A stretch of 64,000 nt of DNA from Nautilus pompilius (Eukaryota > Mollusca > Cephalopoda > Nautilida > Nautilidae): assembly GCA_018389105.1 (NCBI GenBank), contig JACATO010000091.1, positions 930,001-994,000 on the forward strand. Reading direction: 5' to 3'. Both the position numbers and the translations under genes were made by a program. A model generated the notes under the pieces. That model searched no databases, was not told the DNA's origin, and saw only the letters and a list, made by a program, of their open reading frames with translations. The first letter of the stretch is position 1, and each line of letters starts with the position of its first letter. Of this stretch, positions 2,756-59,514 are shown piece after piece.

Positions 2756-5700
2756 TTAGATTTTACCATTTTTGATAAAACCAAGTATAGCCCCACAGCG
2801 GAGACAATTAGGATATGTTTTGTCATCTTTCTTTGGGATGTGCCAACATCGGCTGCAGCGAACCCGATATTTCTTGTACCTGAAAGCATAAAACAAGTTT
2901 TTTTTTTCCAGCAAGCATCTATAAGGATGGAACATTATTGGTGTTGATTTATCATAAGGTCAACCATTACGTCTTGTATTTAATACCGGGATTAGAAAAA
3001 CAGGAGGAGAGAACTCATTTGGCTTCTATTTCTCCTGTACTTGTCAAGATTAAACCACAAGAAAACAATTGAAGGGGGGGTGTTTAAGTCACATTTTAAA
3101 CTTTGGATTATTGGCTGCTTTCCTTCATCTTCCCATCACCGTTTGGGTTTTCCGTACGAATGTAATATCCCAACAATTCGTGTAAAGAACGATAACATAG
3201 GAACTCGCCCCTATTTTCGATTCTAATCATGGTGAATTCTGAACTTTTTGTTCACGCTGTGCGTTTTCACAGTAATAGTGTATTAAAAAAAAAATACAAA
3301 CAAAAAAGTCCACCTTATACCACAGGCATTGCACAGAGGGGTCCCATCTTCCGCATCTCGCCACAAGGGAGTTTTCTTCGTGTTGCAAGATGCACAGACT
3401 TTCACTGGAAATAAAAACGAACAATAAATGGGCATCCCTTATTGTTGTGGACACCCGTCATCAATTTGGTCCACTTCCTCGAAAGGTCGCCAGTGCGTCC
3501 ATTTCACTATTTACCGCCCACATATAAAAGATAAAGTTTTACAATGTTCTTTTGTTTTGAAGAGTCACCCCTCCCCCCAACCAGTGCTAATAACACTTTC
3601 GCCGTCGGGTGTAGTCACCCCTCCCCCCCAGTTAATAACACTTTCGCCGTCGGGCGTAGTCCCCCCTCCCCCCAACCAGTGCTAATAACACTTTCGCCGT
3701 CGGGCGTAGTCACCCCTCCCCCCAACCAGTGCTAATAACACTTTCGCCGTCGGGCGTAGTCACCCCTCCCCCCAAGTAAATAACACTTTCGCCGTCGGGC
3801 GTAGTCACCCCTCCCCCCAAGTTAATAACACTTTCGCCGTCGGGCGTAGTCACCCCTCCCCCCAACCAGTGCTAATAACACTTTCGCCGCCGTCGGGCGT
3901 AGTCACCCCTCCCCCCAACCAGTGCTAATAACACTTTCGCCGTCGGGCGTAGTCACCCCTCCCCCCAACCAGTGCTAATAACACTTTCGCCGTCGGGCGT
4001 AGTCACCCCTCCCCCCAACCAGTGCTAATAACACTTTCGCCGTCGGGTGTAGTCACCTCCCCCCCCCCCAAGTTAATAACACTTTCGCCGCCGTCGGGCG
4101 TAGTCACCCCTCCCCCCAAGTTAATAACACTTTCGCCGTCGGGCGTAGTCACCCCCCCCCCAACCAGTGCTAATAACACTTTCGCCGTCGGGTGTAGTCA
4201 CCCCTCCCCCCAACCAGTGCTAATAACACTTTCGCGCCGTCGGGCGTAGTCACCCCTCCCCCCAACCAGTGCTAATAACACTTTCGCCGTCGGGCGTAGT
4301 CACCCCCCCCCCCCCCAAGTAAATAACACTTTCGCCGTCGGGTGTAGTCACCCCTCCCCCCAAGTTAATAACACTTTCGCCGTCGGGCGTAGTCACCCCT
4401 CCCCCCAACCAGTGTTAATAACACTTTCGCCGTCGGGCGTAGTCACCCCTCCCCCCCCAAACCAGTGTTAATAACACTTTCGCCGTCGGGCGTAGTCAAC
4501 CCCTCACCCCCTCCCCCCAAGTTAATAACACTTTCGCCGTCGGGCGTAGTCACCCCTCCCCCCAACCAGTGCTAATAACACTTTCGCCGTCGGGTGTAGT
4601 CACCCCTCCCCCCAAGTTAATAACACTTTCGCTTTCGCCGTCGGGCGTAGTCACACCCCCCCCCCAAGTTAATAACACTTTCGCGCCGTCGGGCGTAGTC
4701 ACCCCTCCCCCCAAGCAGTGCTAATAACACTTTCGCCGTCGGGTGTAGTCACCTCCCCCCCCCCCAAGCAGTGCTAATAACACTTTCGCGCCGTCGGGCG
4801 TAGTCACCCCTCCCCCAAAACTAGTGCTAATAACACTTTCGCCGTCGGGCGTAGTCACCCCTCCCCCCAAGTTAATAACACTTTCGCCGTCGGGTGTAGT
4901 CACCCCCCCAATCCAGTGTTAGTAACACTTTCGCCGTCGGGTGTAGTTACCTCCCCTTAGACCAAAACTGACCATGCCCGTCAACGAGTTACGACCCGAA
5001 CTATTTATCCGCGTTACAAAGTAACAGCGACCCACCTGGACTGGGGTAGAGCCCCGTGTCTCGCGCCAGCGCCGTCTCTTCTGCATCAGTGTCGCTGAAA
5101 GAATCCGAGGGGAAGTCCTCGCTGTCCCGTCGACGCTGCTGCCTCTTCGCCGACCTGGCGGTGCTTTAAACGAGACAAAGGCAAACACTTGACTTCGGAA
5201 CAAAACGGAAAGCTGCCAAAACAATGATGGAGAGGGAGGGAGAGATGCCGAAGAAGCCAGATCCCTCTGGAGACCCGATCTTCGCCCGACTTACTTGAAG
5301 AACGACTTCACCACCAGCTGACTTCCTCCATCACTCGTCAGCTTCGTCTGCAGGACGAAGGAGACCCCGCGGAAGTGGGGGTCGAATCGGGCCGCGCTTC
5401 TCCGGGGAGCCAGCGCCTTCCGACCCCTCCTCCTCCCCTCGGCTTCGGCGTCCAGCGACCGCGCCCAGCCCTCCTCGTCGCGGCTCCTCTTCCCAGGGCC
5501 CAGATCGCCCGCCCGCGGCCTCCAGGTCCGGTGCCGTTCCCTGGAACAGAACAACAACAACTCGCCTCGCTGAAGAAGTTCGTTTTAAGAGAGACCGGGG
5601 GGGGTGGGAAAAGGGCCGAAACCTTTCGCATCAAACATACATTTTCGAATATTTAATAAATAGACACGAAGGCGGCCGGGGCCCCGTACAGCCCCGGTAG

Positions 5701-6470: not shown

Positions 6471-6764
6471 ATAAATCGCGTTGAATTTTACTCCCACCAC
6501 ATGGAGCGTTTACTACTGATTAAAAAAAAATGCTTATTTTTTCCTCTCCAAATTTCAGACTAAAAACGGCCTTTCTACCAAAAAAAGACACCACCACCTT
6601 AACGCCCGAAGAAAATCCCGTTTCTATTAGCAACCAGGAAACCAGTTGTTTGTTGTTGTTGTTGTTGCCGTAGTGACATGGTGAACCTTGTTTCTGTTCT
6701 GTTCGTTTTGTTTTAATAAGTTTATTTAGCTTTATTTCTGCCACAATAATGTACGCTTCTACAG

Positions 6765-6808
6765 TGTGTGTGTGTGTGTGGGGGGGGTCTCTCTCTCTCT
6801 CTCTCTGT
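6765..6808. repeat. Compound microsatellite (GT)n-G7-(TC)n
   Basis: A GT run is followed by seven G and then a TC run on the plus strand. The minus-strand reading frames through it are artefacts. Confidence 0.9.
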
Positions 6809-6964
6809 ATCATATAAACTGGTGCAGTTGCCAGTCATTTTCGGCCAACCTTTTCTTATCAGAAATCTGAATGGCTGAGTTTTAATGATAATAGCGACAT
6901 CAAAGCAAATTATAAGAAGCAGGCATATATATATATATATATTACCGGCTGTCGTCTGCTTAAA

Positions 6965-7066
6965 ACGTCTAAAATAATGAGCGGAAGTTACCGAAGACAC
7001 CCGAGCATATATATATATATATATATACGTCTAAAATAATGAGCGGAAGTTACCGAAGACACCCGA
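6965..7066. repeat. 40-bp direct duplication separated by a TA repeat
   Basis: Positions 6965-7004 and 7027-7066 are identical over 40 bases, starting ACGTCTAAAATAATG and ending AGACACCCGA. The spacer is a 22-bp GCATATAT run, and a similar GCATATAT run lies just before the first copy (about 6924-6943). Each copy contains GCGGAAGT, an ETS-type core. The duplication looks recent because it carries no mismatch. Confidence 0.9.
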
Positions 7067-7240
7067 ATAGAAGGCTATTGAAGAAAACAAACAAACGGAC
7101 GGACGGAATCAGAAACAGGATTTTCTTCCGTTCGGGGCGGGGGGAAAGAAGAAGAAAACGGCGAAAAATGAAGTTAGTTTCGTTATAATCTGTTGTTTAG
7201 CGCTGCTGCAGGAACCACCGAAATGCTCTGCGCTACACAG

Positions 7241-7830: not shown

Positions 7831-8262
7831 ATCCACCCATCCATCCATCCATGCATCCATCCATCCACCCACCCACCCATCCATGCACCATTCACCCATC
7901 CATCCATGCATCCACCCACCCATCCATCCATTCACCCACCCATCCATGCATCCATCCATCCATCCATCCACCACCATCCATGCATCCACCCACCCATCCA
8001 CCCATCCATCCACCCATTCACCCACCCACCCATCCATCCACGCATCCACCCATCCATGCATCCACCCACCCATCCATCCATGCATCCACCCACCCATCCA
8101 CCCATCCACCCATTCACCCACCCATCCATCCATGCATCCACCCATCCATCCACCCATCCACCCATCCATGCATCCACCCACCCATCCATCCATGCATCCA
8201 CCCACCCATCCACCCATCCACCCATTCACCCACCCATTCACCCACCCACCCATTCACCCATA
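7831..8262. repeat. CAYC tetranucleotide block (CCAT/CCAC variants)
   Basis: About 430 bp built from CATC and CACC tetramers with interspersed CATG and CATT. Because the unit is 4 bp, all frames stay open and give His/Pro/Thr/Ser/Ile-rich peptides on the plus strand and Trp/Gly/Asp/Met-rich ones on the minus strand. None is a credible protein. Confidence 0.95.
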
Positions 8263-8605: not shown

Positions 8606-8680
<75 letters not shown>

Positions 8681-8681
8681 T
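8606..8681. repeat. (TTA)n microsatellite
   Basis: About 25 uninterrupted TTA units follow a short CATCATCATT lead-in. The length suggests it varies between individuals. Confidence 0.97.
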
Positions 8682-9041: not shown

Positions 9042-12000
9042 ATGTATTCACGAGCTCATATCTTAATACAGAGAGAATTTGAAAATCTTCAGAAGGATTG
9101 TCCTTGGGTAAGTTCACATTACGATGTTCCGGCAAACATTTTCTTCCTGCCAAAACAAAACTACTGCAGTCTCATTGTTATGAACCCAGAAAATATAATG
9201 ATAACTGAATGATTGAAAACTAACAAAAACACAATAAACAGCATAAATTCTTAGGTTTTAAAATTAAACCAGAGTTTCTATGGAATTCGAAACAATCTTT
9301 CCTTTTCCATTAATAAAGGATACTTTGCTGCAATGCAATGGTGTGAAAATTGACTAACTCCCTCCCCCCCAGTCATCATGAACTAAACATGGACTGCATC
9401 CATGGGTGGTATTTGAATGAGTTCTGCTAGTGCTTTCATTGTTGCAAAAACAATTTTGTATTATCTGCATCTCGAAACTTGCTTCAGATTCCGTGTCTAT
9501 GTCTGCCACACTGTTACAAGACTTTTAATCATTCTTCACATCCATCAACATGGGATATTTGTTGTCATCCTTGACAGTGATAAACTGTTACATTAATTTT
9601 AAATGTTAAATGTTTCTTTTTTCTAATATTTGAAATGCATTTTGCTTATAAGCATCACCAACTTGCGGCATAGCTTTGTTGGTGCCCCTAATGTAAAATA
9701 AATTTTGTTAAAATTGTGTTTTGCTGTTTTAGGGTACAATTATTCCACTTGCTCTTACTGTGTTCAGATACTGATGAGTGTTCAGTTTGATTTTTTTCTG
9801 TATAATTCATGTGTGTGTTCATTTATTCACAGGGCCTGGAAGTTGATCCACTTGTAGAAGACAATGTGTTTGAATGGGTGGTGAGAATGAAAGGATTGAA
9901 AGACACGATATGGGAAGGTACTGTAAATAGCTTGCTGAATATTCTCAGACCATAGAGATACTGTGCCAGGTCATTTTAAAAAATGGTGATGTTTGAATTT
10001 AATGTTTTACAAATCTGCATCATTTTAATGAAAATCATTGTCTTGAAATACAGGACAGTTGAAGGAAAAGTTTACAGCGTTTGTAAGTGCTGTTGTTGTT
10101 TCTCTTGTTTTTTAGACTTATAATTCTGATGTAAAGTAATTAATACATTTACAGATATACAATTTTCTGGTGGAATTTAGTTGGTGACACTTAATTCACT
10201 CGTCTGGAGGGAGGGATTTGAATGATTTAAAGAAATTCTGAGAAGTTGGTTAATTATTCCACAGAGGAAAACATTTTCTTATACCTCAGCTGTATCATTA
10301 CTTCTAAGGGCATTTTAGTAAATTCAAACTTTTGAAACATATATAGGATCAAATAGCAGAGCTCTCCTGTGACAAAGACCATAAACACCTTTGTGTGTAT
10401 CATAGTTGTGCAAGATGTCATTTGCATATGTTTTGGTAATTATGAGTGTAATTATTTCTTATATGCATTTAATAGTTATTATAGTAGTTTAAGCATTGAA
10501 ATAGAACCATAAATAGTATTAATGGTGATTAACCTTAACGAATTCCTAGTGAAAGATGAACTAGATGACCTCTTAGTTAATGAGATAATTTTTTCAGTGA
10601 TGAGTATATTACTGCAGTTAGGTTTATAGTTATTTTCTCTGAAAGTTTAATTTAAAAAAAAAGAAGCAAGGAGTGTATTTTATGGATGTGAGGATGATGA
10701 TGGCAAGTTATAGATGACGGTATACACACTAGCTGCCATAATCGTAGACTTGCCAATAAAATAAACAACAAGCATTAAGGAGGGCATTCCAATGGAAATA
10801 AAGAAAAAATTGAAAAGAATTTTTTTTTACATTTCTTGACTTTTTAACAATTGTATTCTAATACACATGCACTAATAAATTACTTTCTGTTGGGATATGT
10901 CATTGTTGAGGCCACAATTATTAATTGTTCAACAATTTTATTTTAGCTGATGTCAGCAACTGAAAACTCTGTCTTTATTGTTTAGTCTCATCCCCCCCCC
11001 TTTTGTAATATAGTAGCTCTATTTTATTTTTCAAACAGTTAAATCAGTGGTTCCCAAACTCCTTGGGGTTTGATAAATGTTTAGGGGCTTCTCGGGAGAA
11101 ATTCCATAATGACTTAGGCAAAAGTGTTTGCAAGCCAAAATTCCTAATTTACAGGAAATTGACAGTTGGTACTTTTTTCATGAACTATGAAGGAATTGGT
11201 GTTCATTGTGGATACAGTTAATTTGACTTGTGCATAAATAAATAATTAAATGTAATTATGGAAACACAAAGCTAATAAAAGAACACTGGCACAACTAAGC
11301 TACTTAATTCTTATTTGTGTTATTCAGAAGCAGCTGTTGGTTTTGCACTCAACAAATGAGCAAATACACTCAATAACAGACAACTATTTTGACACCTCGA
11401 GGGCCGAATGGAGCCAGGTCACTGTAGCCAATGCAGTGGCAGTGTAGTCCATCAGTTGGTCATTACTCAGTCACTCTCAGAGCTATGCTATTTTTCTCTG
11501 GTGAGATGTGAGTGAATGTTCTCATTTACTAGTTGTTGTTTTTTGTTTGGACCGTTCTACATCCCATAATGGACAAGTGGCTGAAAATAATCTTCTGGGA
11601 TTACGAACTGAAAATGAGTTTCAGAAGTCTGACATTGATCAACTTTCGGATGAGTTTAAGAAATGAGTGGTGCCCTCTGCTGGCAGAAAAAGTTACTGTA
11701 GTTTTGTTATCATTTTCAACAGCATACTTACGTGAGAAAGCATTTTCATTGAATGTGCATCTGAAAACCAAATTCAGAAGCAGACTCATTGCCAAACAAG
11801 ACCCGAGACCTTATCTTTCTTCAATGGTTCTGGATTTCAAGAGCTGTGCCAAGCAAAGCAACCACATCCATCACACCGAGTAGATTGAAACTCCCAGTTT
11901 AACTACAAGTTTAGGCTCAATCAAAGTGATACGAGTTACGAAAGTGAAATCTTGGAAGAGGTCTTCAAATGTAATAAAATTAATACTGTAGAGATAAATA

Positions 12001-15000
12001 ATAGTGTGTAATATAAGTGTCATAAGAAAAACAAATTTTATGTTTCCAACATCACTGCTTCTATAATTTATACTCAGGTAAGGGAGAAATTCCCTGGGAA
12101 ATATTTATTTTTAGGAGGGAGGTTCACAAGAAGGGACATGGGATGTTAAAGTTTTTTTGGAACCACTGAGTTAAATGATTTAGGATATTTTGAAACATCT
12201 GTACATTAGATATACTGTTTGTCTTTTTTTTTTTTAGGAGGAATTCTCATGTTGCACCTACAGTTCGATGAACACTTTAATGCACGCCCACCAGATGTGT
12301 ACTTTTATACAATTCCTTTTCATCCAAATGGTGAGTTGTCAGGCACAGAGTTATTCATGTTTAATTGCTCAAACTGCTGTTGCCATTACAGTTATTCTGC
12401 TCAGGCTTGAATTTCCCATGAGGAATCACCTGGATGGTAGAATTTGATAATTTTTTTGCAATCTTTTTTCCATCCAGAAACTACTTTTGCTGGATTTTCC
12501 GTATTTATTTAGTATGAGCTGGCAGGTTAGAGTAATGTGTAGCAGGCTTATCTGTCATGGTGGAGCTGCTCTCAGTTGCCTTCTCCAGTGGTGTGGCTTC
12601 TTTTTTGTTTCCTCTACTAGGCTGTTCCCTGCAGTCTCCTGTGGACAGATTGGCTTGCTCCCTTCCACTTCTAATTACTAATTAGACCTGGTCCATCTCT
12701 AAAGCTCATATTATCATTATTTAGTTATTGCAGATGTCCAAGATTGAGGGTCCAAGTTTGAAACACAGTTGGTTCCAGCTTTGTTTGGCACACCTCCTTG
12801 GCATGGTTTTTCTTGCTTTTCATCACCATTTTGGGTTTCCTTTCACATCTAAATATGAAAATTTCTAGTATTGACTTCTAATAGGTTTATTTACTGAGCT
12901 GGTGATGCAAAAAATAAAACTGTCTTGGAAGGACCAGGGACTATTTGGCCAAGAATGATGACCTGTTGTTGTGTCATCAGTGCAACAGCACAGTACCTTA
13001 CTCTGTATTATTATTGTAACAGCAAAACAACCTGGAGATACATATGTCTTACCACCTCTGAGTTACAGGTCAATGTGGAGTTCTGTACATGAGGTCTTAG
13101 CATGTCTAAATGCTGCAAGCCATTTAAGATCTGCATCTCTATCATTGAAAACATAGCACCGGTCACATAGACTTTTCTGTTGCAGTGGACATGATTACAG
13201 GGAAACCTTGTCTGTCAATTCTCGATGACTCCTCAGAGTGGAATCAGTCATACAGTGTTGCTTCTATTTTGCTAAGCATTCAGGTTGGTAGCCATATTTT
13301 TCTTTCTAAATACAGAATGATAACAAAATTAATTAACTTTAAAAATTGCATAATAAAAACAAATTTAGGAGCATGAAAGTTTGTGCATCATGTATTTCTA
13401 AGTTGCTTTTTTGTCAGTTACAGGAAATAAACATAAGAATAAAAGAATTTGAATATTTACTAAAAAATATGTTGTAGATTGTTGATGAAAACATAAAATT
13501 TGGATGAATTGAATCTGAAACAAGTTTATATCTGCTGATGATTATGAAAACATAGCATTGCAGAACTCTATACCTGCTAATAATTGTGTACATTCTCATA
13601 ACACAGTGCTACACAAGCTGAGCCTCAAAGAGTATACCACCTAAAAATGTCAGCTGAAAACACTTTTGTGGTATTGTAAAACAATTTCACAACCATGAAA
13701 ATAAGTGCCTGTCTAGTTTATCTTCCAGTGATGTCTACACCTCACAAAAAAATAAGCACCAAATATTTCCAAGTCTGTAGTGTTTCTTGACATATTTCGG
13801 TTGATGATGACCTGCATAGAAAAACCAACTTGATATCAGTGAAAACTAAGATTGTTTGGTCTAAACAAAATGGTTGTCTGGAATGAGTGTGCAAAATTGC
13901 AATGGCATCAGTCTAAAATGATCATAGATAAATTGACGCTGCCAGAAAAAATGTCCATAGCATGTGAGACCAAGCTTGTACACATCTTGGTATTGACCAA
14001 GTCAGATGTTCCAACTGTCATTTCAGGATGCTGCACCATTTTTCGACTAGGGCTACTCAGGTTGGACTTAGCAACCACAAACATGGCTTCTTCAGTCAAA
14101 GATTATGCAAGTCAGATGCAGTGATGTTGTGAACTGGAAGTGCGGTATTGCCAACATGCATGGTGCAGACAAACATTATTATCTGTAAGGATGAAGTTTG
14201 GATTTTTCCATTAGGCCATAGTGAAGACTACATGCATAATGATCTCATCCCTGTATCTGACACCAGTCATGGCACAGCCCTCTTAATGATAACATCATCA
14301 GTTCTTTGGAAAACTTGAATGCCAGCCCATACCATCAGGCCACTTCCATCAAATCAATCTTGTTAGGTATTAGCACAATTACCAAAAATCATTCCCTATC
14401 TTGTCTCCAGACTCTAACCCACTCATCATTGATATTTGGACAGAATCTGGACTTCTCATCATTTAACTTCCAGATGTGATGTGTCTCATATTGCATGTGA
14501 AGTAGTCAGTGGCACCATGTTAGAAGGCTGTGCAGCAGTGGTATTTTGGACTGCATACCACTAGCATAAAGTTTGTTATGTCAAAACTTTATAGTTAGTT
14601 TTCCTTTGGAGATCATAGGCAATGGTTCTCTATGGGGCTATAACCTTTGGGAATCCTGAATGAGGTCTTTTCATAAACTGGACAGTCTGACAAGAATCTT
14701 ATTAGTGCCCTAGAAATGCGTACTGATAAGAACATTGTACTGGAAAGCAGTAACAATCTGTATCATTCTTCTTGAATCATCGCGATGGCCTAAGCCACTA
14801 CATTTGATGTTAAATGACATTAAGGCATTCCCAAACTAAATGAAACCATGATGTGCATGGCCAGTTTATAGAGGAAATGGGAATGGGTTGTATACAAAGA
14901 TGTACATAAACTAAGATTCCAAGTTCTTTTGAACAATGTACCAACAGACTTGGAAATGCTTGTTACTTATTTTCTTATGAAGAGTATATGATTAGATGCT

Positions 15001-18000
15001 GATGCACTTTGTAATATATTTAAAGCTTAATCAGCTTATGAATTTCAGGATGCACTGGCTGATGTGTATGTGAATTATCCCTGGCTGAAGACTATCATGA
15101 GCATTTCTTCAATGATTGACATTATACAGATGGAATATTATTTGTTAAGTTTTACTCTACACTTTGAAGGTTATATGTTAATTGCATTCTTTGTTTGAAG
15201 AGAATTGTTTATATTATAGTTTTTCACCTGTAGCTCAATATTCAATAACTGTTACTTCTACACATTTTGAATAGATGGTTTTGTCTTTGCTTTTTTCTAG
15301 TCACTGTTGTCATACCCAGTTATAGAGGGTGCTGTGAACACCAAGGCTGTGGAGATGTTTGTCCACTTTCCTCACACCTATCAGCAGATCATTCTCAATT
15401 GCATCATAGCAAGTCAGAAAATTGATAGTGAGTTGGCAAATCAACTGTCTATGCAACATTTTGTTTTCTTTCTTGAAACTACACATTTTATTTCGGCCCT
15501 TTCCTCACAACATCAACGTTACCTTGCCTTTTAAAAATAGCAACAATAATACAGAAGCAATGGATTAAAACAAGTCTTTAATTAATGTGTCTGTAAAAGA
15601 TGGGCTTATCTTTACTTGATAAATACTTCACAGTTGTTTTCATGGATTAGAATCAGTTTGAAACCCACTGAACACTAAAACCTCTTTCATTATTCTTTTA
15701 ATACAATCAGGATAAAACAACACATACTATAGGATGTTTTACAAATAATCTAAGATTTTTATAATTATACTTTATTTGTAGAAAAAAAAAATTGGCTGCC
15801 TTTCAATCTCCACTGCCAGTCAGTTACTAGACCAACTGAATGTATCAAAAAGGATAATTCATGGCTACTACTAATGGAGCAGTAGGGTTAGGGTTATGTC
15901 AGACTTATGGTTAACAATGCAAATGGGATTTTTCTATATAACGATGAATGTAGAATATTTTATAATTAAATATGCTAATAAGTTCTTGAGATTTCTCAGT
16001 ATTGCACAATGCTAGTACATTCTTTAATCAGGAATAAAACACCATGAGATATGGAGGCGATTAAGCTTTTTTTTTAGACAGCTTCGTCAAAGCAATGATG
16101 AAAGTAGAATGACAAAAATAATATTCAAAGAAAAAGAAGTTATGATTTGATGATGCAGGAGAAAAATAAGAGTAGATAGTTTTAAATGGTTCTAATTGTG
16201 TGGAACTTGTTATAACTTGAGTATTAGAGGATTTTCTGTTAATAAGGTTATCATGTAGGGAAATGAGAATAGACAAATTTTTGTTGGATTCATATATTAA
16301 GAATTTAGCATCAGTCTAAATGCAATATCTTTTATGACTTACAGTTAAGATTTTACTTAAGTACATTAAATATAATGCTCAACATTGTATGCTTTATATT
16401 TTCATGCTGGGCCAAAAAAAGTAGAAAAATGAAGTAAAAATAAAAAAAATCTCATCTACAATTCATCTAAATTAAAGTGGTCTTGTAATCAATCCACTGG
16501 ACCTATGTATATACACTGTGAGTGTTGTATGCGACTGATCAGCAATGGTCATGCAAAAGTGAGCATAATAGTGGATATCTGTGCAGCTAACTCTACCCTC
16601 AATGCTGTGGCTACATTGAACACCATGTCCATCAGTGGCAGTCAGACCAGCCGTAACACATGAAGCCTGCAGACATGCTACAGTGGCCCAAGTCCTGATC
16701 TCAGCCCATTGAGCATCTGTGGGACATCTTGAAACAATGCATCAGAGGCTGTCTATCTGCATGGTAATGATGGATGAATGTTTGCAAATGCCTTGTAAAT
16801 TCATGCAGTGATTAGCTGAAGCTCTCATTCAGGCTAAGGGTAGTCCTATCATCTCTATAATCTCAAATATTTTGGTCAGGCAATTTATAAATATACAATT
16901 TTTTTTTCTTTTTCTGCATTAATTGAATTTATTTACAAAGAGCTTGTTTATTATGATTAACAAGATCTTTGTTGCTGTTATTTTCTTTTAGGAATTAATG
17001 TCGTTCTTTGTTTGCATATTATTTTAGTAAACCACATTATTATTAATAGTAGTACAAATCTCCTCTGTATTTTAGCAGGCTCATATCCATACTCAGAGAG
17101 TGAAGTGATGTTGACTCCATGTGTATCAGATCAGAAATTGATAGAGTTTACACCACCAGAGTCATCAGCTCCTAGAACTTTAAAAGTCTCGTTTGATGAT
17201 TACCACTTGTTGTGGTCAAATATCGCCACATCTAAGGTCACTCCAAAGTCACTCAATTCTTGTATGTTTTATTTCTCTTATTATTATTACCATATAGAAA
17301 GAAATATTTCATCCATAAGCTGCTGGTTAATCCAGTGAATAATAAGAAAAATCAAAATCAAATTATCTGTTCTGATACTAAAAGTAATTTCGCCAACAAG
17401 GAAATAGCAGTAACTATGCTTTAGACTGAATGAATAGTATATATAGATGATAACTCTATAATACAAGGTGTGCAACTCTGGTTGATTTGTTAATTTTCTG
17501 ACCAAAGAACCTTAGCAACTGTGTGTGGTTTTGGTAATATAATGTACTTGCATAACTAGGCCAACACAAGCATGTTACAATATTAACCACATCTTTATTA
17601 TGTACCTTGGCCATGGAAGTCTACTCTGCATTTCCTCATAACAACAATCAGTTGGCCTAAGAAATATGTTTGCCATGTTACTACATCCTCTCCATCTTCA
17701 GGACAGTTTTAACACTGACCCTTTTTTTTTTGGTAGCTCAGGGGTTAGGATGTTGAATTTTCAACTAAAATTATAAAGTTTCAAAAATACATTATCTTAT
17801 ACAGATCCAAATAAATAAATAATTTCAGATTGTGCTTCATAATCTTAACTGAAAAGTCAAGTTAAAATTAACCTTCTAACAAAGTCTTTGTCAGGACTAT
17901 CTTGAAGACAATGGAAAGAAGAGTTTCTTTGGAAACATCAGTGAAGATTATTGTAGATGGCGATAAAATCTTGTTGTTTCAGTTTAGTTTCAAAGCCAGT

Positions 18001-19612
18001 CAAGGTTGCTTACCAATAGTGTTATGATTTAACCAAAAAGCTGCTTTTAAAATTATTTCTACATCTGATGTTTATCGTAACAACGTGTGTTCTTTTTATT
18101 TTTTAGATGTAGAAAAAATAAAAAATAATTCAGAGTTACTTAGCATTCATTTGGGCCTCAGTCCTAGAGCAGAGATTGAGAAAGAAGGTCGCCAAAAAGA
18201 TTTGTAAGTATTGCACATCGTTGAAGTAGCAAAAAAAAAAAAGTATTTAAAAAAATTTCATTGTAAATTGTGGATAAAACTGTTTTCTATACAATCTCTC
18301 TACAGCCTTGGTAACCCCTATCCTTATGATGCTCGAATAATAATAATAATAATAATATAAACAAAGAAAATGAATGATACAGAAAGATTCGTTATCTGTT
18401 AAACATTTCACACACACACACACACACACACACAACACACAAAATGGCTTATGAAAAGCAGCAGTATTCTGACTTTTTTTGTTTTAATCTGGTCTTTAGT
18501 AAAAAGTAAGATTCCTCATGTGCTTCCTGCATGACATAACTTATTAGTTATTTTGTTCAACCGTTTAAGATCAGAATATTCATTTTTTATTTTATTCTTG
18601 AAAATGTCTTTTCATTTAGAGCGCACAAAAAGACGCATATATGAGGAGTTTAGCATATTAAGATGGCAGCTCATTTTGAAATACTCATCTTTATGTTTTT
18701 AAAATGATTACTATCCTCACTAAAAATTTGATATGAAAAAGAAATGCTATTAAAAAAACAGCTTTGGCTGATTGATACCATACTCCTGTTCATCTTTGAT
18801 TGTTTGAGGGCTTTTTCCCCATCAGGCTTGCCACACTAATGTACGGAAATTTTAAAAGGAAGGACGAAGATGCAAAGAGAGTGAACAGAAACCTGGAACA
18901 GCTACAGAAGAAGAAGCAGATGTATTTGTCTCGCAAAATATTTTCAGGTGGGTGACACAGTCTTTGGTTCAAATGCTGTGAAAAAGCAACATCAAAATAT
19001 TTACAGCTAAAACGTACCTATGAAAAAACTAGTTTTCATTCTCCCATCTCTCATGTTCATGTGTGTGCATAGTGTAAAATTGTTGCTCATGCTAAGAATG
19101 TGCCCAGCCCACTCATAGTTACTTTGCTGACAGATATTATTCTTGGAGTTAATTAATTACTAGCATATATGTAATTGTCAAAAAAAAAAAAGAAAACATC
19201 TGTTGAACTTGTTCATCAAAGAGTTTACAGCTGAACATTTATATCAGAATGGTTTTAAAAATACTTCAAATTAGGAGCCTTTATAACCTCCTAAGTTATT
19301 TTTGCAAGTAAAACTGCTGTCATGCAGATGGAGTTAACTTTCACATTTCTAATACTTGTTCATTGCATTATGACCTCTGACTTGATAATGCAATTGCTTA
19401 TATGTAATACAAAACAAATAAATATCTAAATAATGCCTTAGCTGATGAAGGTGAACATATCATTAGGGACATGTACAATTAATATCATTATTTCAGGTAA
19501 CACCATAAAACATGCTAACAGCCTACAGATGGTTGCAGATCCCCCAGATCTTGAAGTTGATGATTTAGTTGCCTGGACAACGAATTTGAATGAAGAAGTG
19601 CTTGACATATAA
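9042..19612 (+). CDS. UBE2U: Ubiquitin-conjugating enzyme E2 U, nine exons
   Basis: Exons: 9042-9107, 9833-9917, 12238-12330, 13186-13283, 15301-15427, 17076-17261, 18107-18203, 18826-18947 and 19497-19612. They sum to 990 nt (329 residues), every phase joining. E2 enzymes carry ubiquitin as a thioester and pass it on with an E3. The UBC fold spans roughly residues 1-150, with the helix start MYSRAHILIQREF, the HPN motif at 79-81 and catalytic Cys90 in GKPCLSILDD. UBE2U-specific features follow: a long C-terminal tail with FDDYHLLWSNIATSK, a basic Lys/Arg-rich helix in exon 8, and the terminal VDDLVAWTTNLNEE block also present in human UBE2U. Length is close to the human long form (about 320). 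Vertebrate UBE2U is largely testis-expressed; its substrates are poorly known. Introns 2, 4 and 5 hold transposons. The tail faces FDX2. Confidence 0.95.
11045..12168 (+). mobile_element. hAT-family transposon, truncated, with 8-bp target duplication
   Basis: This lies in UBE2U intron 2. The left end reads CAGTGGTTCCCAAAC and the right end GGAACCACTG, its inverted match. Both sides are flanked by AGTTAAAT (11037-11044 and 12169-12176), an exact 8-bp duplication typical of hAT insertion. Inside, 11533-11883 encodes a plus-strand remnant of a ZBED/FAM200-type hAT transposase C-terminus, including the dimerisation segment AYLREKAFSLN and the TKFRSRL motif. At 1,124 bp it lacks the BED finger and most of the catalytic core, so it could not move by itself. 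Confidence 0.92.
13738..14984 (+). mobile_element. Old Tc1/mariner-like element with ~41-bp inverted ends
   Basis: This lies in UBE2U intron 4. The left end (from 13738) and the reverse complement of the right end (to 14984) match at about 33 of 41 positions and share TTTCCAAGTCTGT. Both are flanked by TA (13736-13737; 14985-14986), the target of this superfamily. At 1.25 kb the size fits a full Tc1 copy. The interior is badly decayed: a DEVWIF-like stretch near 14190 and SPDSNPL near 14409 resemble the DDE blocks, but no frame survives. Confidence 0.75.
16500..16880 (+). mobile_element. Tc1-like transposase C-terminal fragment
   Basis: This lies in UBE2U intron 5. Around 16680-16745 the plus strand reads QWPKS, a stop, then SQPIEHLWDILK, which is the third catalytic block (SPDLSPIEHLWD in Tc1 relatives) with stops and a frame slip. 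No inverted ends were recognised. It is a degenerate fragment unrelated to the intact Tc1 copy at 41708. Confidence 0.6.
17074..17079 (+). other. NAGNAG tandem splice acceptor of UBE2U exon 6
   Basis: The exon 6 acceptor reads TAGCAGG. Splicing after the first AG starts the exon at 17076 and gives Thr-Gly at the junction. Splicing after the second starts it at 17079, gives Ser and loses one residue. Both keep the frame, so two isoforms differing by one residue are possible. Confidence 0.6.
18409..18434. repeat. (CA)n microsatellite in UBE2U intron 7
   Basis: About 13 CA units. A short AAT run lies nearby at 18341-18356. Confidence 0.95.
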
Positions 19613-21691: not shown

Positions 21692-25506
<3,815 letters not shown>

Positions 25507-25912
25507 TTTAATTGTTTATTATTTCGGGGCTGAACTTTCGTAAACATATTGCTAAAAAAAAAAACCAGAAGCAAAAACAAACAAAATATAATAAATTAAC
25601 AAATAGATTGCATAAATTAATTAAATAAAATTAAAATAATTAGCATAAATAATTTTTAAAAAAACAAAACAACTACAAAGCTCGGCCAGTGCAGAGACCA
25701 GCTCTGTATGGGATGTTTTAATGGTTTTACGAATGACAACAGATGGGAAAAGTCGTCCTCGGATATCTGCGGCCTTTTCCCGGACGGGTGTCGAGCACTG
25801 ATACACCGCGTGGAGAAGCGAGGGGCTGAAGAAGGAGTCAAAGCGCGAATCTGGATCGGGGGCTGAGAGTTTTGCGGAGGGGAGATCGTTCGATGGTGAG
25901 AGTTGGTCCAAG
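25507..25912. promoter_or_regulatory. Divergent promoter between FDX2 and CACHD1
   Basis: Only 406 bp separate the FDX2 ATG (25506, minus) and the CACHD1 ATG (25913, plus). The CACHD1 side is strongly CpG-rich, and the FDX2 first exon (25350-25506) is also GC-rich. The middle (25550-25660) is A/T-rich. Both start codons sit in AANATGGCG, which fits the YY1 site often found just downstream of TATA-less starts. That the promoter serves both genes is inference from spacing. Confidence 0.65.
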
Positions 25913-25955
25913 ATGGCGGTCATCGCGCGTCTGTCGGTGGTCGGACTGGTGGTGA
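25893..25955 (+). other. Overlapping upstream ORF at the CACHD1 start
   Basis: An ATG at 25893 opens a 20-residue frame that ends at TGA 25953-25955, past the CACHD1 ATG at 25913 and out of frame with it. Its context is weak (T at -3) while the main ATG has A at -3 and G at +4. Leaky scanning could therefore still reach CACHD1. It matters only if transcription begins upstream of 25893. Confidence 0.4.
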
Positions 25956-52900: not shown

Positions 52901-55900
52901 AAAATAGCAATGCAGTCCAACGCCTCTCTTTCACTTTATCTAAAATTGGATATACATTTTGTTGTTTACTTTTTCCATCTTATGTTAGCTCTTTAGCTGC
53001 TGAAGCTGTATTTATTTCCTGGCCTCATGTGGCATTATAGTTCTTTGTCGATGTATTCTAAGCCTGACCTGCTACTCTGGTAGTCTTTTGGTTACTGCCT
53101 TGAGTTGGTTATTTTGTCAGGGATGATCTAAAGCCTGGTTCCAAATTTGTTTTTTTATTTAATTATGCTAATTATCACCTTTCCTTGTTTTTTCTTGAAT
53201 TTCTAGACAGCTTCTGTTACATGGAAACATTCTTTTCCTTCCTAGATAGTGTCTCTAAAACTCCAGCAATCACAGTAAGTAAGCTCAAGCTTGATATAAT
53301 TCTCAGACACTGTCAAAAGAAAAGGGAGGTAATTTATTAACTCATTGAACTTTCAGTCGGAATAGACCTTGTCCATGGTTCCTGAGGCAAAACCACCAAG
53401 AACTAATTTTAAGCTGAAACAATGCTGTAATGCATGCATTTATACATTCCAAGAGAAATTGTAAAATAGCTGGTTCCTACATCCATCTAACAGAGGTAAA
53501 TGTTTTTGACGAATCTGTATCAAGTTTATGAAAATTGTTTTTTTTTTTAGTCTGCTGGTGCTGCACTCATCAACTTTTTGATCGCTAAACCCATCAACAT
53601 CACTTTCTTCCTCTGATGAAGACTAAGTCATTTCATCAGATGGATAACTGTCATCAATTTTCCTCCATATTCATTGTTTCCAGAGTCAGTTTAATTGAGG
53701 AGTTGCCGTAAACTTTCAGGTCATGCCTGCCCTGTTTTTTTTTTTATAAATTTTGATTGCAAACTGGTCGACAGCTGCTTTTTGAGAAAGAAGGCTGCTG
53801 CAGTCAGTGCTTTAGTAACGAGAGTGCTGGTTAGCCAATAGGTTTCAAGGAAATGCAGGAAGATGCTGTTATATTGGTCTTGTGGGATATAGACAGATTT
53901 GTTGCAGACCGATGTTTTGATCTGAGGACCTCAAAAGGCTAGAAGCTACAATAATAACGTGGGGCAGAGTTACAAATTCAAAAAGAGATAAAACCGCACT
54001 GTTTTGAGTTTCTTTGATTTTTCTGACTCACTGCAAGTCCGTGCTTTTTTAGAAATGACAAACTGCTTGCAGGATAAACCATTTTAATCTCCCCCCCTTG
54101 TTTTGTGCAACGCCTGGTCGGATACTGGAAGATGTGTCATACTGACATCAGATTTGTTGCATTTCAGGGTGGTTGTATTCACTTTATAGCTGGAAATCTG
54201 GGAGCATAGCTCAAAAAAGATTTTTTTTTTTTTGTAAAGAATATTCTTATCGTTGGACCGTAACTGTGCCCGAAGAAACTATTTTACAGACTAATTTCCC
54301 ATAGAGAGATTAAATAAACGTGGCTCGTTTTGTTGTTTTCAGTGGAAGAAAACCACAATGTTTGACGAGTGACTTTCTATTTAAAAATTATAACTTTTCT
54401 GATGGGTACAGAAACTTTGTTCTGGCATCATATAAAAGATCATTTTGCCATTGGCTTACGTTTACACATGGACTTGAAACCTCACCCGCTCACTTTTTAA
54501 TGTTTCTTTAGCTCTTTGGATGCTGGTAACTAAAAGTTTTCACGCTTATTTTGGTTAGTAAGATTCTTGTTTCTGGAGAAGACCAGATCTGTACGTCTTT
54601 TGTTGGCGCTGTTGTACACTATTTGGCAACTAGTTCATCTGATTTCTCTTCCTTTGTTTCAGGCCATCTATGACTCCTTGCCATATGCCACAACCAGCAG
54701 AGATGACGAGAAGAAACTCCAGTCGGTAAGTGTGAACATCATTTGAAAGTTTGTTCTCCTAACCCGCAGCAGGGCATTGCCATTGCATGAGGCATCATCT
54801 GCTAAAGAAAACCTAACATCGTTTTTGAGATGTGGGGGGAAACTGGAGTCTACATGGCTGACTGGTGAAGGAGAAACCATGCTGAAGAGGTACCACGAAC
54901 TGAGCCAAGGCCCATGGCGGATTAATCTGAGGGCAGGGTACAGAGAAGAGACATACACGACACAGGATAGATTCTTAAACAGATCTTACTATAATTGAAA
55001 GCGGATGGATAGGTATGCATATATAGATGAATATATTAATACTCTCTCTGCCTCTCTATGAGAAACTGACTGAAGCGATGATAAATTAAAGTTAGCTTAA
55101 GTAGAGCTAGTTGAGATTAATGTGACTGGATATTCTCATTTCTTTTTGAATTGATTTTCGCATGGATATTAGCGTACCAGTTGAATAAATTGTTTTTTGA
55201 GAATGCTGTTTTAATTCTTTTCAGCCTGTTGCTTTTTTGTCTGTCTGACTTTGCTCTTTTGTAATTAAGTATGCCTTTTTGTCAATACGATGCTCTTCAC
55301 TGCTGCTGCCTTGCTTGTTTTTTTTAGCTTAAAATTTAGTTTCTATTAAGCGACTGTATTTGAATGATGTGTGGCACCAGCATCATCAGGGAAGGCACGG
55401 TCCTTTCTCGTTGGAAACTTTTTGCTCATTGCTCATGGGTGGAGGAAACAAGAGATGAAAAATGCACTGAAGAGTTTTTTGGTGATTAAGAAGATTCGAA
55501 ATAAACTCTGCTTTTTTTAACTGAAGTGGCAAATATCGTTAGTTTTCATACTCCAAATCAGGATTCCTGGTTCTGGCGGAGTTAGGGGTTGTCATCTAGA
55601 ACTGCAGAGATAATGAGTTGGTCTAAGCAGGGAGTATAGTCAAGTAGTATTAGCTGAGAGGTTCTCACCTGCTCTAGTACAAGAGCTAACTAGATCCTTA
55701 AAATGCTTGACCCCTGCACTGAGGGCAGATGGGGAGAGGAAAGCCCACAGAAATGTAGGGGCATGATATCATGCACAGGAGAAATTCAGTATTTTCTGTT
55801 TTGCTAGCGAAGGTTGGTCACTACTTGGTTTAATCACTTCCAATTTGTGAAAAAGCTGTAGCCATGGTAATAGAATGGGGGACACCTTGTGGTCTGTTTA

Positions 55901-56662
55901 CTAACAGCTTTCATTTGTTTCACTTTTGGGGAATTGAGGTGAAGGGAAACAAGACCAGCCAAAGGTTCCAAATGCAAGTACTTGGCAGAACTAAGCACAC
56001 CAATTATAGTGAAGTTCTGCTGCTGTTGGTGTACTTTGATGGTAAAAAAGGGCAGTTAAGTTTTTGTAGATTAAGCGCCAGTTTATCCCTGGATGGTGGA
56101 AAGGAAAGCAAAGTGCCCTGCCTTGCTGAAAAAAAAAGGGGGGGGACTCTGTTAAAATTATATCTACAAATGGTTTGACGCTGCTACTAACTAACCAGGC
56201 AGAAATTCTGAAGAAACAGTAAACTGCCTGGCTCTGGCAAGAACAGCTACAGAATCCAAGAAGTGAGCTTTTACGGAGAACGACCATCCTTACCCCAGGG
56301 ATTCATTAAGATGCCAGTGTAGCTGCTCAACAACAACAAAAAAAAAAAACAACAACCAAAATTCGTAGTTCCGAGCCGGCTTGTTTTATGATTTGTTCTA
56401 TGAATTCTCCGATAGCTCGCCTTCAACACGAAAATATATAAGTAAACATAAATGTATATAAATTTCCGTTGGCTTTCCTATACATAGAGTTATTTGAGAG
56501 AGAGAGGGAGGTGTATATTTGTTGGTGTACATGCAAACGAAGAAAGTAGACTTTCACCACTGCGGCTGTCTCTTAGTTCAGGACTAACTTTGACATGATC
56601 GGGCAAAACTCAGTTTCCTTTAGTTAACGTGAAATCATTTGTTCTAGTAAAATTGATTTAAG

Positions 56663-56693
<31 letters not shown>

Positions 56694-59514
56694 TTTAACT
56701 TCAATTTAAATTGTTCTTTCCAATTTGCCCGAATCATACACAACCTGTTGTAGTCAGTCCTCAGTGGTGGTTTTATCCAAACCCCCACCTTTTTTTAAAG
56801 TGGAGATTAGGGAACTTGCACTTGCCGCCGCAACAGAAACGTTTGGTTTTTTTCCCTGCATTTGGTGGCAGTTGGTGCCAGCAGTGTTGGGGGGGGGTCT
56901 AAAATTCACTGGCGTTTCTAGGTTATTAATATGGGAGGTTGGGAAAATTTGCCATTGAAAACGAAGACAGGCTTCTCTACCAGAATGCTTCTTAGTATCG
57001 AGAGTTCCGTTTTCAAAGAAAGGTCAGCTTGATTGATGGAGAGAGAATACCAGCTCTAAGCCTCTGGTTCAAGTGGTGTGATTTGGCAGCAGCATCTGTC
57101 AAGCTTCGCAGCTGTAAAGATGCATATTGATGATGATGTAGTAGTTTTCTGGGTTTTTTTTCCCTTTGTTTTCCTACCTTGTGTTTTTATGGAGATTAAA
57201 TTGCCAGAGGATAAACAGAAATCTACTATATCAATCTGATGTCACTGGGCTTTATACTAGGGCGATGAGCATACTTTCCAACAATGCTTTTAATTCTGAT
57301 TTGCTCTCTGCATAATAGGTGGACTGTAATAAGGTTTTGTTTTTCTTTTAGGTTAGTTTATAAGACGTCACTTAATATATAGACTTTTTCTTTCTCCTGC
57401 ATGCTGCAAACACTAGTGAGACTCCTCCTCTAGGAGAGGGGCAGAACAGGTATTGTTAAACGAACCGAGTCTGAGGTCTAAATTAACATTACTTCATTAT
57501 TTTATTGACTTGCTTGAACCACCCCTTCTTATCAACGTACAGATATAACATCTGTGTGCCCCATGTAGAAAAGTCAGATAAAGTAAATCTCAGCAAGGAC
57601 TCTATATATATATATATATATATATTCATTATTTTCTCAAGTCTTATGTCTCCACAGCGGCAGGACAGCTCAGTAAATCACCGAGAAAACATCAGCAACA
57701 AGCTGATTGCCCGAATTGAAATTTTGTTACAATAGCCGCAATAGCGCTATATAAATTCCATCTTGTTGTTTTTTTTTTTACATTGAAGGTTAATGAATGG
57801 AGTGTCAGCCTAAAAAGTTTGGTTTTTTTGTTTCTTTTCTTAAGCTTTGGTTAAACTGACATCAATTTGTGGGATGGCAGTTCATATTTTATAATCTGCA
57901 CTAGGGTTTTGTGGCCTCCACTTAGTTTCACGGGACTTTCACTCATTGATGGTAAGTGAACAGAAATTTGGAGGACAATAGTGAAAGCTTTGTTTAAATT
58001 TGTACTTAATTTTAGAAATTTTTATTAACAAAGGTAATATGATTTACTGAAATAATGGAACAGGATCATTGTGGGAGGGGTGTTATTGAGGCTGATGTAT
58101 TGTAGACGGATGTTGAGAAGGGGATGCTGTATAGAATTAGCCACTTTCAGCATGGTAAGGGTTAAAGATACTTAAATACTATGTCCACTTTGACATTTAT
58201 AGCAATTTGATGCTGGAAGCACAGCTTTAAAAAAAAAAAAAAACTTTCCCCTCTATTGCGATAAGTGGAAATATCCTCATGTCTTTGAAAGACCCACAAT
58301 TTCTCTGATCAAATTCCTGAATTCATTTTTTGGTGGATAATTGAAATTTTCCAACCCAAAATTTAATTAAGTGTCGAAAGGAATGAGATACTTGTGGTAT
58401 TTTAATTTTTAGAATTTTTGGAAAGTGAAAATAATTATTCATATATAAATATGATTCCCCTTGACAAATTATCTGGAGAAACAGCCTGCATGTTTATTGG
58501 AAACATCCATGTTACATAGATTTGTATGTATCTATATATGTACAGGTATCACTATAGCTTCTTTTTTTTTCTTCTCTAGATTGCCAAGCGGCTGAAGGAC
58601 CGGTTCCACAACTACTTACAGGTTCTTAGAACCAATAAGATCACTGTGGAGCATCTCTACAAGTTTCATGTGAAGCAGCCAGTCACGCAGAAACTTGATT
58701 GCTGCACATTGTCATTCAAGGATCTGGGGTGAGTTCACCATCCAGAGGAGCAGCATCTTCTAACCCAACCTGCTCATCTTAACTACTTTTAACTTATAGT
58801 CACATATTAGTGCTCATCAAACCAAATATGATGTCTGAGTTGTGATTTTGAAAATTCCTTAGGAAATCAACAGTGAATTGTACCTGTTTATTTTGGCTAA
58901 CTGCAGTTTATTTTCCCCTGTTATCCGTTGAAAAAGTTAACTGTCTTTTCCAAGATTAATATTAAAGTTGAAAAGTGTTTTATTGTCTGGTGTGCAGAGA
59001 AGTTCCAAGTAATGTAGTGAATGGTTTAATTAAATTCAGCATAATTCTCAGTTTTCAGCTAATCAAGTTTTGTGAAGTGCATTGTTCAGAACAAATATTA
59101 TTATGATCTCCCTAACTTGGCTAATGCTTCATAGTTTTATTCTCAGCTCAAAATCGTGTAAAGCTGCTAAGTGCTGTATAGTACTTGTGCTTTGCATCTC
59201 TCTCTCTCTCTCTCTCTCGGATCTTGACCAGACTGCAGGTGTAGCCATGATGAGTGAGCATGCTACACTTAGAGAACTGATCTACAAGCATAGCTGATGA
59301 TTTTTTATTTTATGCACTGCAAATGCTGCTACAAGATGCCCGTCTTAGATAAACTTTAAACAGTGGTACTGACGATAACTTTGTAATACATCCTAATTCA
59401 TTTTCAGAACTCTGAACCAGTATCGATGCAAGATCTCTGTTCATACCAGCTGCGATCTGATCCCACCCAACCTCCCACATGGTTCTTTTAATCCTGGACG
59501 GAACCTGACTGATG
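25913..59514 (+). CDS. CACHD1: VWFA and cache domain-containing protein 1, first four exons (gene continues right)
   Basis: Exons: 25913-26248, 54663-54725, 58580-58728 and 59408-59514, with phases 0, 0, 2 and 1 joining correctly; about 218 residues. CACHD1 is a single-pass cell-surface protein related to calcium-channel alpha2delta subunits. In vertebrates it modulates T-type channels and Frizzled/LRP Wnt receptors. Only the extracellular N-terminus before the VWA domain is seen. It includes a signal peptide (roughly residues 1-25), the block HLRRLTNEEIGATTMQ, the segment LKDRFHNYLQVLRTNK, a DCCT Cys pair, and SFNPGRNLTD. The order and length between these blocks match human CACHD1. Sequence after the signal peptide (about 26-75) has no match I recognise. 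Intron 1 is 28.4 kb. VWA, cache and transmembrane parts lie beyond the edge. Confidence 0.93.
26497..26570. repeat. (AC)n followed by polypyrimidine tract
   Basis: Twelve AC units (26497-26520) run into CCCTC-rich sequence to about 26570. Nearby are a TC run (about 26396-26411), a GGT run (about 26758-26781) and a TTTA run (about 26794-26822), all just inside CACHD1 intron 1. Confidence 0.9.
30612..30847 (+). mobile_element. 236-bp TA-flanked MITE of the Tc1/mariner superfamily
   Basis: The left end CAGGGTGTCCGTAAAGTTAC and the right end, read inverted as CAGGTGTCCGTAAAGTTAC, match over about 27 bp. Both sides have TA (30610-30611 and 30848-30849). The inside keeps a shred of transposase on the plus strand: FFDGTVTGEK and, after a one-base slip in an A run, YLDKLRNVIVPALKQRP. 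That is a recognisable piece between the first two catalytic Asp of IS630/Tc1/mariner enzymes. It is therefore an internal deletion derivative. Confidence 0.85.
35531..38314 (-). mobile_element. Near full-length hAT transposon with exact 8-bp target duplication
   Basis: The plus-strand left end is CAGGGGTCGGCAACC and the right end GGTTGCCGACCCCTG, a perfect 15-bp inverted repeat. GTCTAGGG flanks both sides (35523-35530 and 38315-38322). The 2,784-bp element encodes a broken hAT transposase on the minus strand. The exact target duplication and short decay history suggest a fairly recent insertion. It lies in CACHD1 intron 1, opposite to the gene. Confidence 0.95.
35900..37629 (-). pseudogene. 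hAT transposase with BED finger, frameshifted
   Basis: ATG at 37629 on the minus strand. The N-terminus has a BED-type zinc finger (CLIC, then H-X4-H in RHYQTRH), followed by the RNase-H-like core with IAIDEATDMTD, TTDGALVMIGEKKG and RFHCIIHQDALCAK, and SNVRWLSRGK. The frame breaks at an A run near 36605-36610 (one extra A) and again near 36420. A third small indel near 36025 precedes the hAT dimerisation motif CEQLFSKMKYTK. The family is the GTF2IRD2/FAM200/ZBED-like group. At least three frame breaks make it inactive. Confidence 0.9.
41708..43227 (+). mobile_element. Young Tc1-like (DD34E) transposon with long inverted repeats
   Basis: Inverted ends begin GGTGCATCTC (left) and, inverted, CAGGTGCATCTC (right). 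They stay alignable for about 190 bp (roughly 41708-41895 against 43036-43227), sharing TTAGAATAT and TTCAATATTTTTTGTCAG. The right side has the TA target (43228-43229). On the left, the first two bases and the TA have mutated. The transposase frame fills the centre. The close similarity to Tc1 copies of fish and other aquatic animals suggests horizontal spread, which I infer and cannot test here. Confidence 0.92.
41971..42963 (+). pseudogene. Tc1-like transposase, one frame with two in-frame stop codons
   Basis: ATG 41971 to TGA 42961-42963 is one continuous frame of 330 codons plus stop. It is interrupted only by TAA at 42037-42039 and TAG at 42211-42213. A helix-turn-helix (VIAERAGCSQSAVSKHI) lies in the N-terminal half. 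The catalytic triad is intact: D in FLFSDESKF, D in FQQDLAPAH and E in NPIENLWG, with 34 residues between the second Asp and Glu. Around the first stop the reading differs from relatives over about nine residues, as if two small indels cancelled out. Confidence 0.93.
44240..44405. mobile_element. Candidate SINE-like repeat
   Basis: AGTTAGCCACTAGAAAGCG resembles 22555 onward, GGTTGGCTGCTGAAGAG resembles 218-233, and CTCGGCCTTCCACCTG resembles the body of the SINE at 38440. CG density is above the surroundings. It could be a mosaic or a chance match; I could not define ends. Confidence 0.3.
45166..45335 (+). mobile_element. SINE-like repeat, family A
   Basis: The plus strand has a tRNA-like head (GGTCGAGCGCTC, then GCGATTCGATTC as a possible B-box). 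It is followed by a body with CATGGTTTCTT, GCCAGCTGGCCATCACATC and GAAAAAATTAAGAG. Inverted copies with the same word order lie at 54775-54915 and 63036-63205. The body resembles the TTTCC(T/C)CCCACATC-type core spread widely in animal SINEs. Confidence 0.5.
49598..49620. repeat. 23-bp perfect palindrome
   Basis: TGTTGCCAGTT, then T, then AACTGGCAACA: two 11-bp arms that are exact inverses around one base. It lies about 170 bp outside the Tigger-like coding remnant. It may be a hairpin, a factor site or a chance remnant of a transposon end. Confidence 0.85.
49792..50742 (-). pseudogene. Tigger/pogo-like transposase remnant with internal deletion
   Basis: On the minus strand, from about 50660, the start AKRPSSGSDVWVPKKNGQSI and, near 50535-50450, LLGTARSTLKTILN match the N-terminal helix-turn-helix of Tigger (TIGD/jerky-like) proteins. 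At 50323-50039 and 50100-49792 comes the C-terminal tail, with VDVDDVQELLDSHEELLTNE, then LTTKFL, DPDWEHSSAF and ESTLDAFIKK, also in Tigger order. The DDE catalytic core that should lie between is absent. Frame breaks occur near 50070 and 50300. No inverted ends were recognised. Confidence 0.8.
52105..52127. repeat. (GA)n microsatellite
   Basis: About ten GA units in CACHD1 intron 1. Confidence 0.9.
54775..54915 (-). mobile_element. SINE-like repeat, family A
   Basis: This starts about 50 bp past CACHD1 exon 2. Read on the minus strand it gives CATGGTTTCTCC, CAGTCAGCCATG, TCCAGTTTCCCCCCACATCT and AAAAACG, in the same order as 63036-63205. The plus strand therefore shows the GGGGGGAAACTGGAG form of the core. 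No clear tRNA head was seen. Confidence 0.5.
56663..56685. repeat. (TA)n microsatellite
   Basis: About eleven TA units followed by a T run, in CACHD1 intron 2 (54726-58579). A second (TA)n block lies at 57603-57625. The intron otherwise shows only the SINE copy near its start and a GA run near 56498. Confidence 0.95.
57603..57625. repeat. (TA)n microsatellite
   Basis: About eleven TA units in CACHD1 intron 2. Confidence 0.95.
59197..59218. repeat. (TC)n microsatellite in CACHD1 intron 3
   Basis: About eleven TC units, 190 bp before exon 4. Intron 3 (58729-59407) shows nothing else. Confidence 0.93.

Follow-up and report, generated by a model that had tools for sequence, protein, structure and literature searches.

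Unrelated genes that have stayed adjacent since the bilaterian ancestor form ancestral microsyntenic blocks, which are well kept in lophotrochozoans. As reported, 256 new blocks were inferred for the bilaterian ancestor in a study of 49 animal genomes, with lophotrochozoans keeping 93% (PMC8851819), and 275 metazoan microsyntenies were recognized in squid (PMC9023564). Deep microsynteny is well known already, and the locus of Nautilus pompilius described here is a clean instance of it. It resembles the known blocks in its unrelated genes, which would have been adjacent since the same ancestor, but its vertebrate side is split over two duplicated loci, so that a comparison with a single human region sees only two of its four genes. 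The other close parallel is the reciprocal gene loss between human 1p31.3 and 19p13.2, ohnologous regions which we take to be tied together by the paralogues RAVER1/RAVER2 and TYK2/JAK1. Single-copy neighbours are divided there between paralogous regions in the same way, whereas the nautilus locus has the undivided order of four single-copy genes plus GAK, without RAVER and JAK. With regard to the content of these regions, MRPL4, ZGLP1, FDX2, ICAM3 and TYK (printed so) are placed at 19p13.2, where they surround a locus with an effect on RAVER1 (PMC8731227), and RAVER2, JAK1, UBE2U and CACHD1 are given together at 1p31.3 (PMC5904227); UBE2U and CACHD1 are also both named in another gene list (PMC1877820). 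In human and most vertebrates studied, the LEPR region contains ROR1, CACHD1, RAVER2, JAK1, AK4, DNAJC6, LEPROT and PDE4B among others, and the DNAJC6 tree was rooted with GAK (PMC4422726).

The window, i.e. the whole stretch of 64,000 bases that was analysed, covers positions 930001-994000 of one contig (JACATO010000091.1, here C91; 1,220,742 bases or 1.22 Mb) in an assembly of 727.6 Mb and 2,558 contigs. Its G+C content is 37%, CpG is depleted (observed/expected 0.49 overall) and the introns of its genes are long. The first-pass annotation had named four genes in the order ZGLP1(-), UBE2U(+), FDX2(-) and CACHD1(+), and this order was confirmed by exon models with structure or motif matches. 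The block spans 2756-59514 in spliced exon models whose splice sites and phases were checked, and 59514, also the end coordinate in the first-pass annotation, is the end of the fourth CACHD1 exon. ITPA(+), absent from that annotation, lies directly left of ZGLP1, and by eye, a 5' exon of it was placed outside the window on that side, at about -451..-199. The gene models are as follows.

361-553 and 1147-1430, plus strand: ITPA, last two coding exons (exon model; Pfam Ham1p_like, E=1.9e-44)
2756-2879, 3314-3404, 5036-5163 and, tentatively, 5295-5584, minus strand: ZGLP1 (GATA-like zinc finger protein 1), exons (exon model)
9042-9107, 9833-9917, 12238-12330, 13186-13283, 15301-15427, 17079-17261, 18107-18203, 18826-18947 and 19497-19612, plus strand: UBE2U, nine coding exons (spliced model)
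25350-25506, 24910-24964, 23438-23544, 22819-22906, 22118-22170 and 21692-21795, minus strand: FDX2, six coding exons (spliced model)
25913-26248, 54663-54725, 58580-58728 and 59408-59514, plus strand: CACHD1, first four coding exons (exon model; start codon at 25913)

The UBE2U model (9042-19612) encodes 328 aa in a frame open throughout and contains a UQ_con domain (Pfam, E=2.1e-30). Among the best 60 of 270 distinct sequences of solved chains at E<0.001, the highest score was that of 1yrv (123.6 bits), followed by the next E2 at 94.2 bits; the identity to 1yrv was 41% over 145 aligned positions, with the HPN motif and the catalytic cysteine aligned. The record of 1yrv is titled 'ubiquitin-conjugating ligase MGC351130', and we take it to be the structure of UBE2U. 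The gene, being nearer to UBE2U than to other E2s, is a probable UBE2U orthologue.

Similarly, the FDX2 model (25506-21692) encodes 187 aa, open throughout, and its best match among 38 distinct sequences was Ferredoxin-2 (8rmc; 177.6 bits, 63% identity over 118 aa). The weaker matches were a yeast-type adrenodoxin homologue (101.4 bits), the best adrenodoxin-named chain (90.4 bits) and mitochondrial adrenodoxin 3p1m (84.1 bits). The C-terminal 11 aa align with FYVDGHVPKPH, and this FDX2-type C-terminus together with the scores points to an orthologue of ferredoxin-2 rather than of adrenodoxin. The CACHD1 part in the window encodes 218 aa, and the gene runs on beyond it after a first intron of 28 kb. 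The sole distinct structure matched by these N-terminal 218 aa at E<=0.01 was 8s7c, CACHD1 itself (E=2.7e-22); a downstream Cache-domain exon at about 95.4-95.9 kb on the window scale also matched 8s7c only (E=2.8e-7), and the probable C-terminus was placed by eye near 111 kb. Matching CACHD1 and no calcium-channel alpha2delta chains, the gene is likely to be a CACHD1 orthologue.

ZGLP1 is defined by a single GATA finger followed at the C-terminus by a second C-X2-C...C-X2-C motif. The minus-strand gene, which ends at 2756, encodes a GATA finger (PF00320, E=1.7e-16), and a second cysteine motif was read in the translation at its C-terminus; its 5' end is uncertain, as the tentative first exon (5295-5584) has no start codon. 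Among four matches in the genome, the C-terminal motif was matched on C91 only, and the two other GATA fingers were at 49-50% identity. Solved chains matched at E<=1 (22 distinct sequences) were GATA fingers with no ZGLP1 structure among them, and comparison of the C-terminus with an approximate human ZGLP1 sequence gave 65% identity over 66 aa, which serves as a lead only. The name and the putative orthology are based on this architecture, the C91-only motif and the tentative likeness to the human protein. A report on pearl-oyster gonad also names a zglp1 gene (PMC4082630).

No additional host gene was found among the four, only repeats, mainly by reading the sequence of the window except for 3601-4899. 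A splice-aware exon scan gave no further convincing exon while recovering just one of nine UBE2U, two of six FDX2 and one of four CACHD1 exons; because the scan was so insensitive, a small host gene inside the block could have been missed. The repeats include 28 CpG-rich copies of a 50-bp tandem unit at 3563-4951, within a ZGLP1 intron, and an open reading frame of 116 aa in a UBE2U intron (11533-11883, plus strand), which looked by eye like a transposase remnant. Two further elements lie in CACHD1 intron 1, outside the block proper.

36505-37719, minus strand: open reading frame of a hAT-like element (zf-C2H2_12, E=1.9e-11; DUF4371, E=8e-5, below cut-off)
42214-42960, plus strand: open reading frame of a Tc1/mariner transposase (DDE_3, E=6.1e-15; HTH_Tnp_Tc3_2, E=7.9e-8)

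The hAT-like frame had at least 40 matches in the genome including itself (40 of 145 candidates scored), nearly all of them 94-97% identical, and the family was apparently active recently.

When the window is compared with human, the strands appear to be kept: we take ZGLP1 and FDX2 to share the minus strand in human too, and UBE2U and CACHD1 the plus strand, with human UBE2U exactly adjacent to CACHD1. The window interleaves the 19p13.2 set (ZGLP1/FDX2) with the 1p31.3 set (UBE2U/CACHD1) gene by gene. In a random four-gene run, two disjoint pairs that are adjacent in human would occur by chance at about 3 x (2/20,000)^2 = 3e-8, and the same coincidence over 20,000 runs at about 6e-4, assuming random gene order and a total of 20,000 genes. 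The placing of human ZGLP1/FDX2 with RAVER1/TYK2 at 19p13.2 and of UBE2U/CACHD1 with RAVER2/JAK1 at 1p31.3, stated in the first-pass annotation, agrees with the papers cited above (PMC8731227; PMC5904227). With human as the one distant animal compared, and as far as these sources go, linkage is found for ZGLP1 with FDX2, UBE2U with CACHD1 and CACHD1 with DNAJC6.

The analysis was continued along C91 for 200 kb past the downstream end of the window and for 20 kb past its upstream end. The downstream gene order is CACHD1, GAK, HSDL2-like, tubulin and HAUS3-like, plus repeats, with GAK(-) as the next gene after CACHD1, at about 124.6-158.7 kb on the window scale. A 72-aa kinase exon scored 69.5 bits to GAK and 42.5 bits to AAK1; the joined exon pieces matched a kinase domain (E=2.1e-13), with DnaJ and PTEN_C2 below the curated cut-offs, and a single stretch again gave DnaJ below cut-off. 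GAK is a paralogue of DNAJC6, a gene close to CACHD1 and JAK1 in human, and the position of GAK beside CACHD1 provides a further neighbour with a paralogue in the human loci and an independent, unpredicted support for the block. GAK and HAUS3 are both at human 4p16.3, so that the block, counting GAK, maps to three human regions. Moreover, the orientation of GAK relative to CACHD1 presumably differs from that of human DNAJC6. The three genes after GAK lie at about 1094-1154 kb of C91: the HSDL2-like gene has SCP2 and short-chain-dehydrogenase exons, the tubulin gene gave E=6.3e-29, and in the HAUS3-like gene one of two tested exons matched HAUS-augmin3 (E=1.7e-5, below cut-off) and the other had no match. 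A second conserved linkage, GAK-HAUS3, is possible.

The window carries these identified genes contiguously, in one order and on alternating strands, with GAK as the outer neighbour. We consider it very probable that this is an ancestral bilaterian microsynteny block, which was resolved by reciprocal gene loss after vertebrate genome duplication. The bilaterian ancestor would have had ZGLP1(-), UBE2U(+), FDX2(-) and CACHD1(+), then GAK(-), and the vertebrate ancestor would have inherited this order and duplicated the block in the whole-genome duplications. The copies may then have lost complementary genes, the one at 19p13.2 keeping ZGLP1 and FDX2 and the other, now 1p31.3, keeping UBE2U, CACHD1 and the GAK paralogue DNAJC6. 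The strongest point for the ancestral order is the interleaving: each pair has one locus in common in human, RAVER1/2 and TYK2/JAK1 join the two loci to each other, and the genes alternate here. That the order is ancient and not a recent assembly, and that duplication and loss followed, are both our inference; for the ancestral status two animals were compared, this one and human. No report of this linkage in invertebrates was found among open-licence PMC papers.

Against the ancestral block, RAVER and JAK, whose paralogues join the two human loci, gave no match on C91. The first-pass annotation had proposed to look past the window end for a RAVER orthologue and a JAK-family kinase, and neither was found on C91. 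With an approximate RAVER1 query (25 of 25 candidates scored), there was no match on C91 and the only two matches were at C2035:239671 and C1439:237268; an alignment of 3,240 bases shows 98.8% identity between these loci, which are probably uncollapsed alleles of one gene. For JAK, 137 of 158 candidates were scored with an approximate JAK2 kinase-domain query; none of the 70 matches was on C91, and the top three were judged by eye to be other receptor-type kinases (ROR-like on C2084, MuSK-like on C2099 and another on C222). A FERM_F2 search for JAK gave no match anywhere, and its 14 controls were equally without match. A RAVER or JAK gene just downstream was rejected since the next 200 kb were read and hold different genes; a scan for RRM and kinase motifs there in open reading frames of at least 25 aa picked 12 frames, the GAK exon alone being convincing. 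Likewise, none of 33 PDEase_I matches and none of 13 adenylate kinase matches was on C91. Because C91 has 1,220,742 bases, the RAVER, JAK-query, PDE and adenylate-kinase genes are no close neighbours of the block, though they may lie on the same chromosome.

The first-pass idea of an unsplit pre-duplication order accordingly stands for the four genes plus GAK and falls for the whole RAVER/JAK neighbourhood: no RAVER or JAK-family gene was found beside the block on C91, as would be expected of an undivided paralogon segment, and with no match to either on the contig the wider neighbourhood is not intact. The ROR-like receptor kinase seen by eye at C2084:4598616-4599431 is one long open frame, with three PDE matches about 2.5 Mb away on C2084. 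This contig may derive from the same ancestral chromosome as the block, since human ROR1 and PDE4B share one region (PMC4422726).

The ancestral-block explanation is compatible with a further possibility, which we regard as tentative, that the block was kept as one regulatory unit through shared promoters or long-range enhancers, in line with the hint of shared regulation in the first-pass annotation. Both neighbouring minus/plus pairs, ZGLP1/UBE2U and FDX2/CACHD1, are divergent, each with CpG-rich DNA at or close to its start.

3501-8000, no strand: CpG-rich DNA between the ZGLP1 and UBE2U coding starts (observed/expected 0.93-1.31 in eight of nine 500-bp bins; mean 0.49)
25001-26500, no strand: CpG-rich DNA over the FDX2/CACHD1 divergent start (observed/expected 0.96-1.35 against the mean of 0.49)

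FDX2 and CACHD1 lie head to head with 406 bp (25507-25912) between their start codons, which, together with the CpG-rich DNA, makes them similar to gene pairs with bidirectional promoters; the promoter is putative, known from layout, and human FDX2 and CACHD1, unlike such pairs, are on different chromosomes. One study of a squid reports stronger co-expression in conserved metazoan microsyntenies than in simulated ones (PMC9023564). On the other hand, the 3.5-8 kb stretch is partly tandem repeat (3563-4951 and 7831-8261), its bin 6501-7000 failed the threshold, leaving qualifying stretches of 3.5-6.5 and 7-8 kb, and one further bin beside the hAT frame (38001-38500) passed the threshold too. 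Moreover, vertebrates can do without the shared starts: the partners of both divergent pairs are on separate chromosomes there, and none of the four genes was lost. Shared promoters for both pairs are possible as candidates, with which layout and CpG content fit. Retention through cis-regulatory entanglement is a putative but the most likely reason for the linkage, given that both divergent pairs have their starts within or close to CpG-rich DNA, and the 28-kb first intron of CACHD1 could hold control elements for neighbours.

A bolder form, which we think doubtful, is that the ancestral block consisted of two head-to-head pairs and that each vertebrate copy kept one partner per pair, the minus-strand genes in one and the plus-strand genes in the other, with splitting of bidirectional promoters as a rule. 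Such a rule is only suggestive because random loss would give this pattern with a chance of about 1 in 8. If it is true, the invertebrate order would be the starting state before promoter splitting.

Two readings would deny that the four-gene order is ancestral. ZGLP1-FDX2 and UBE2U-CACHD1 may be ancient pairs that were conserved separately and united by rearrangement in this lineage alone, and rearrangement round the block may well have occurred, as the matches to RAVER, JAK, PDE and adenylate-kinase queries fall outside C91. Such a union would, however, require two or more insertions, each exactly between genes, to interleave the pairs gene by gene, while the human loci are already linked by their RAVER and JAK/TYK2 paralogues and GAK is a further tie to the CACHD1/JAK1 region; we find this quite unlikely. 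A chimeric contig, in which an assembly error joined unrelated loci, has a negligible probability, even with 2,558 contigs, at least one probable allelic duplicate kept (the RAVER loci) and an FDX2/CACHD1 start region without a second copy in the assembly (1 kb around it matched itself alone), because a misjoin would not recreate a gene set also linked in human, and the UBE2U, FDX2 and CACHD1 exons run in order across the window with GAK fitting outside it.

Finally, the ancestral block would give two intensively studied human neighbourhoods, those of JAK1 at 1p31.3 and TYK2 at 19p13.2, an outgroup in which the order is undivided, and would show how the two came to divide four single-copy genes. 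Complementary splits of this kind hide deep linkage from comparisons with one human region, and more of them could come to light if interleaved blocks were sought across ohnologous regions. The split pairs of vertebrates would also be a natural experiment, by which retention of the block through regulation becomes testable.
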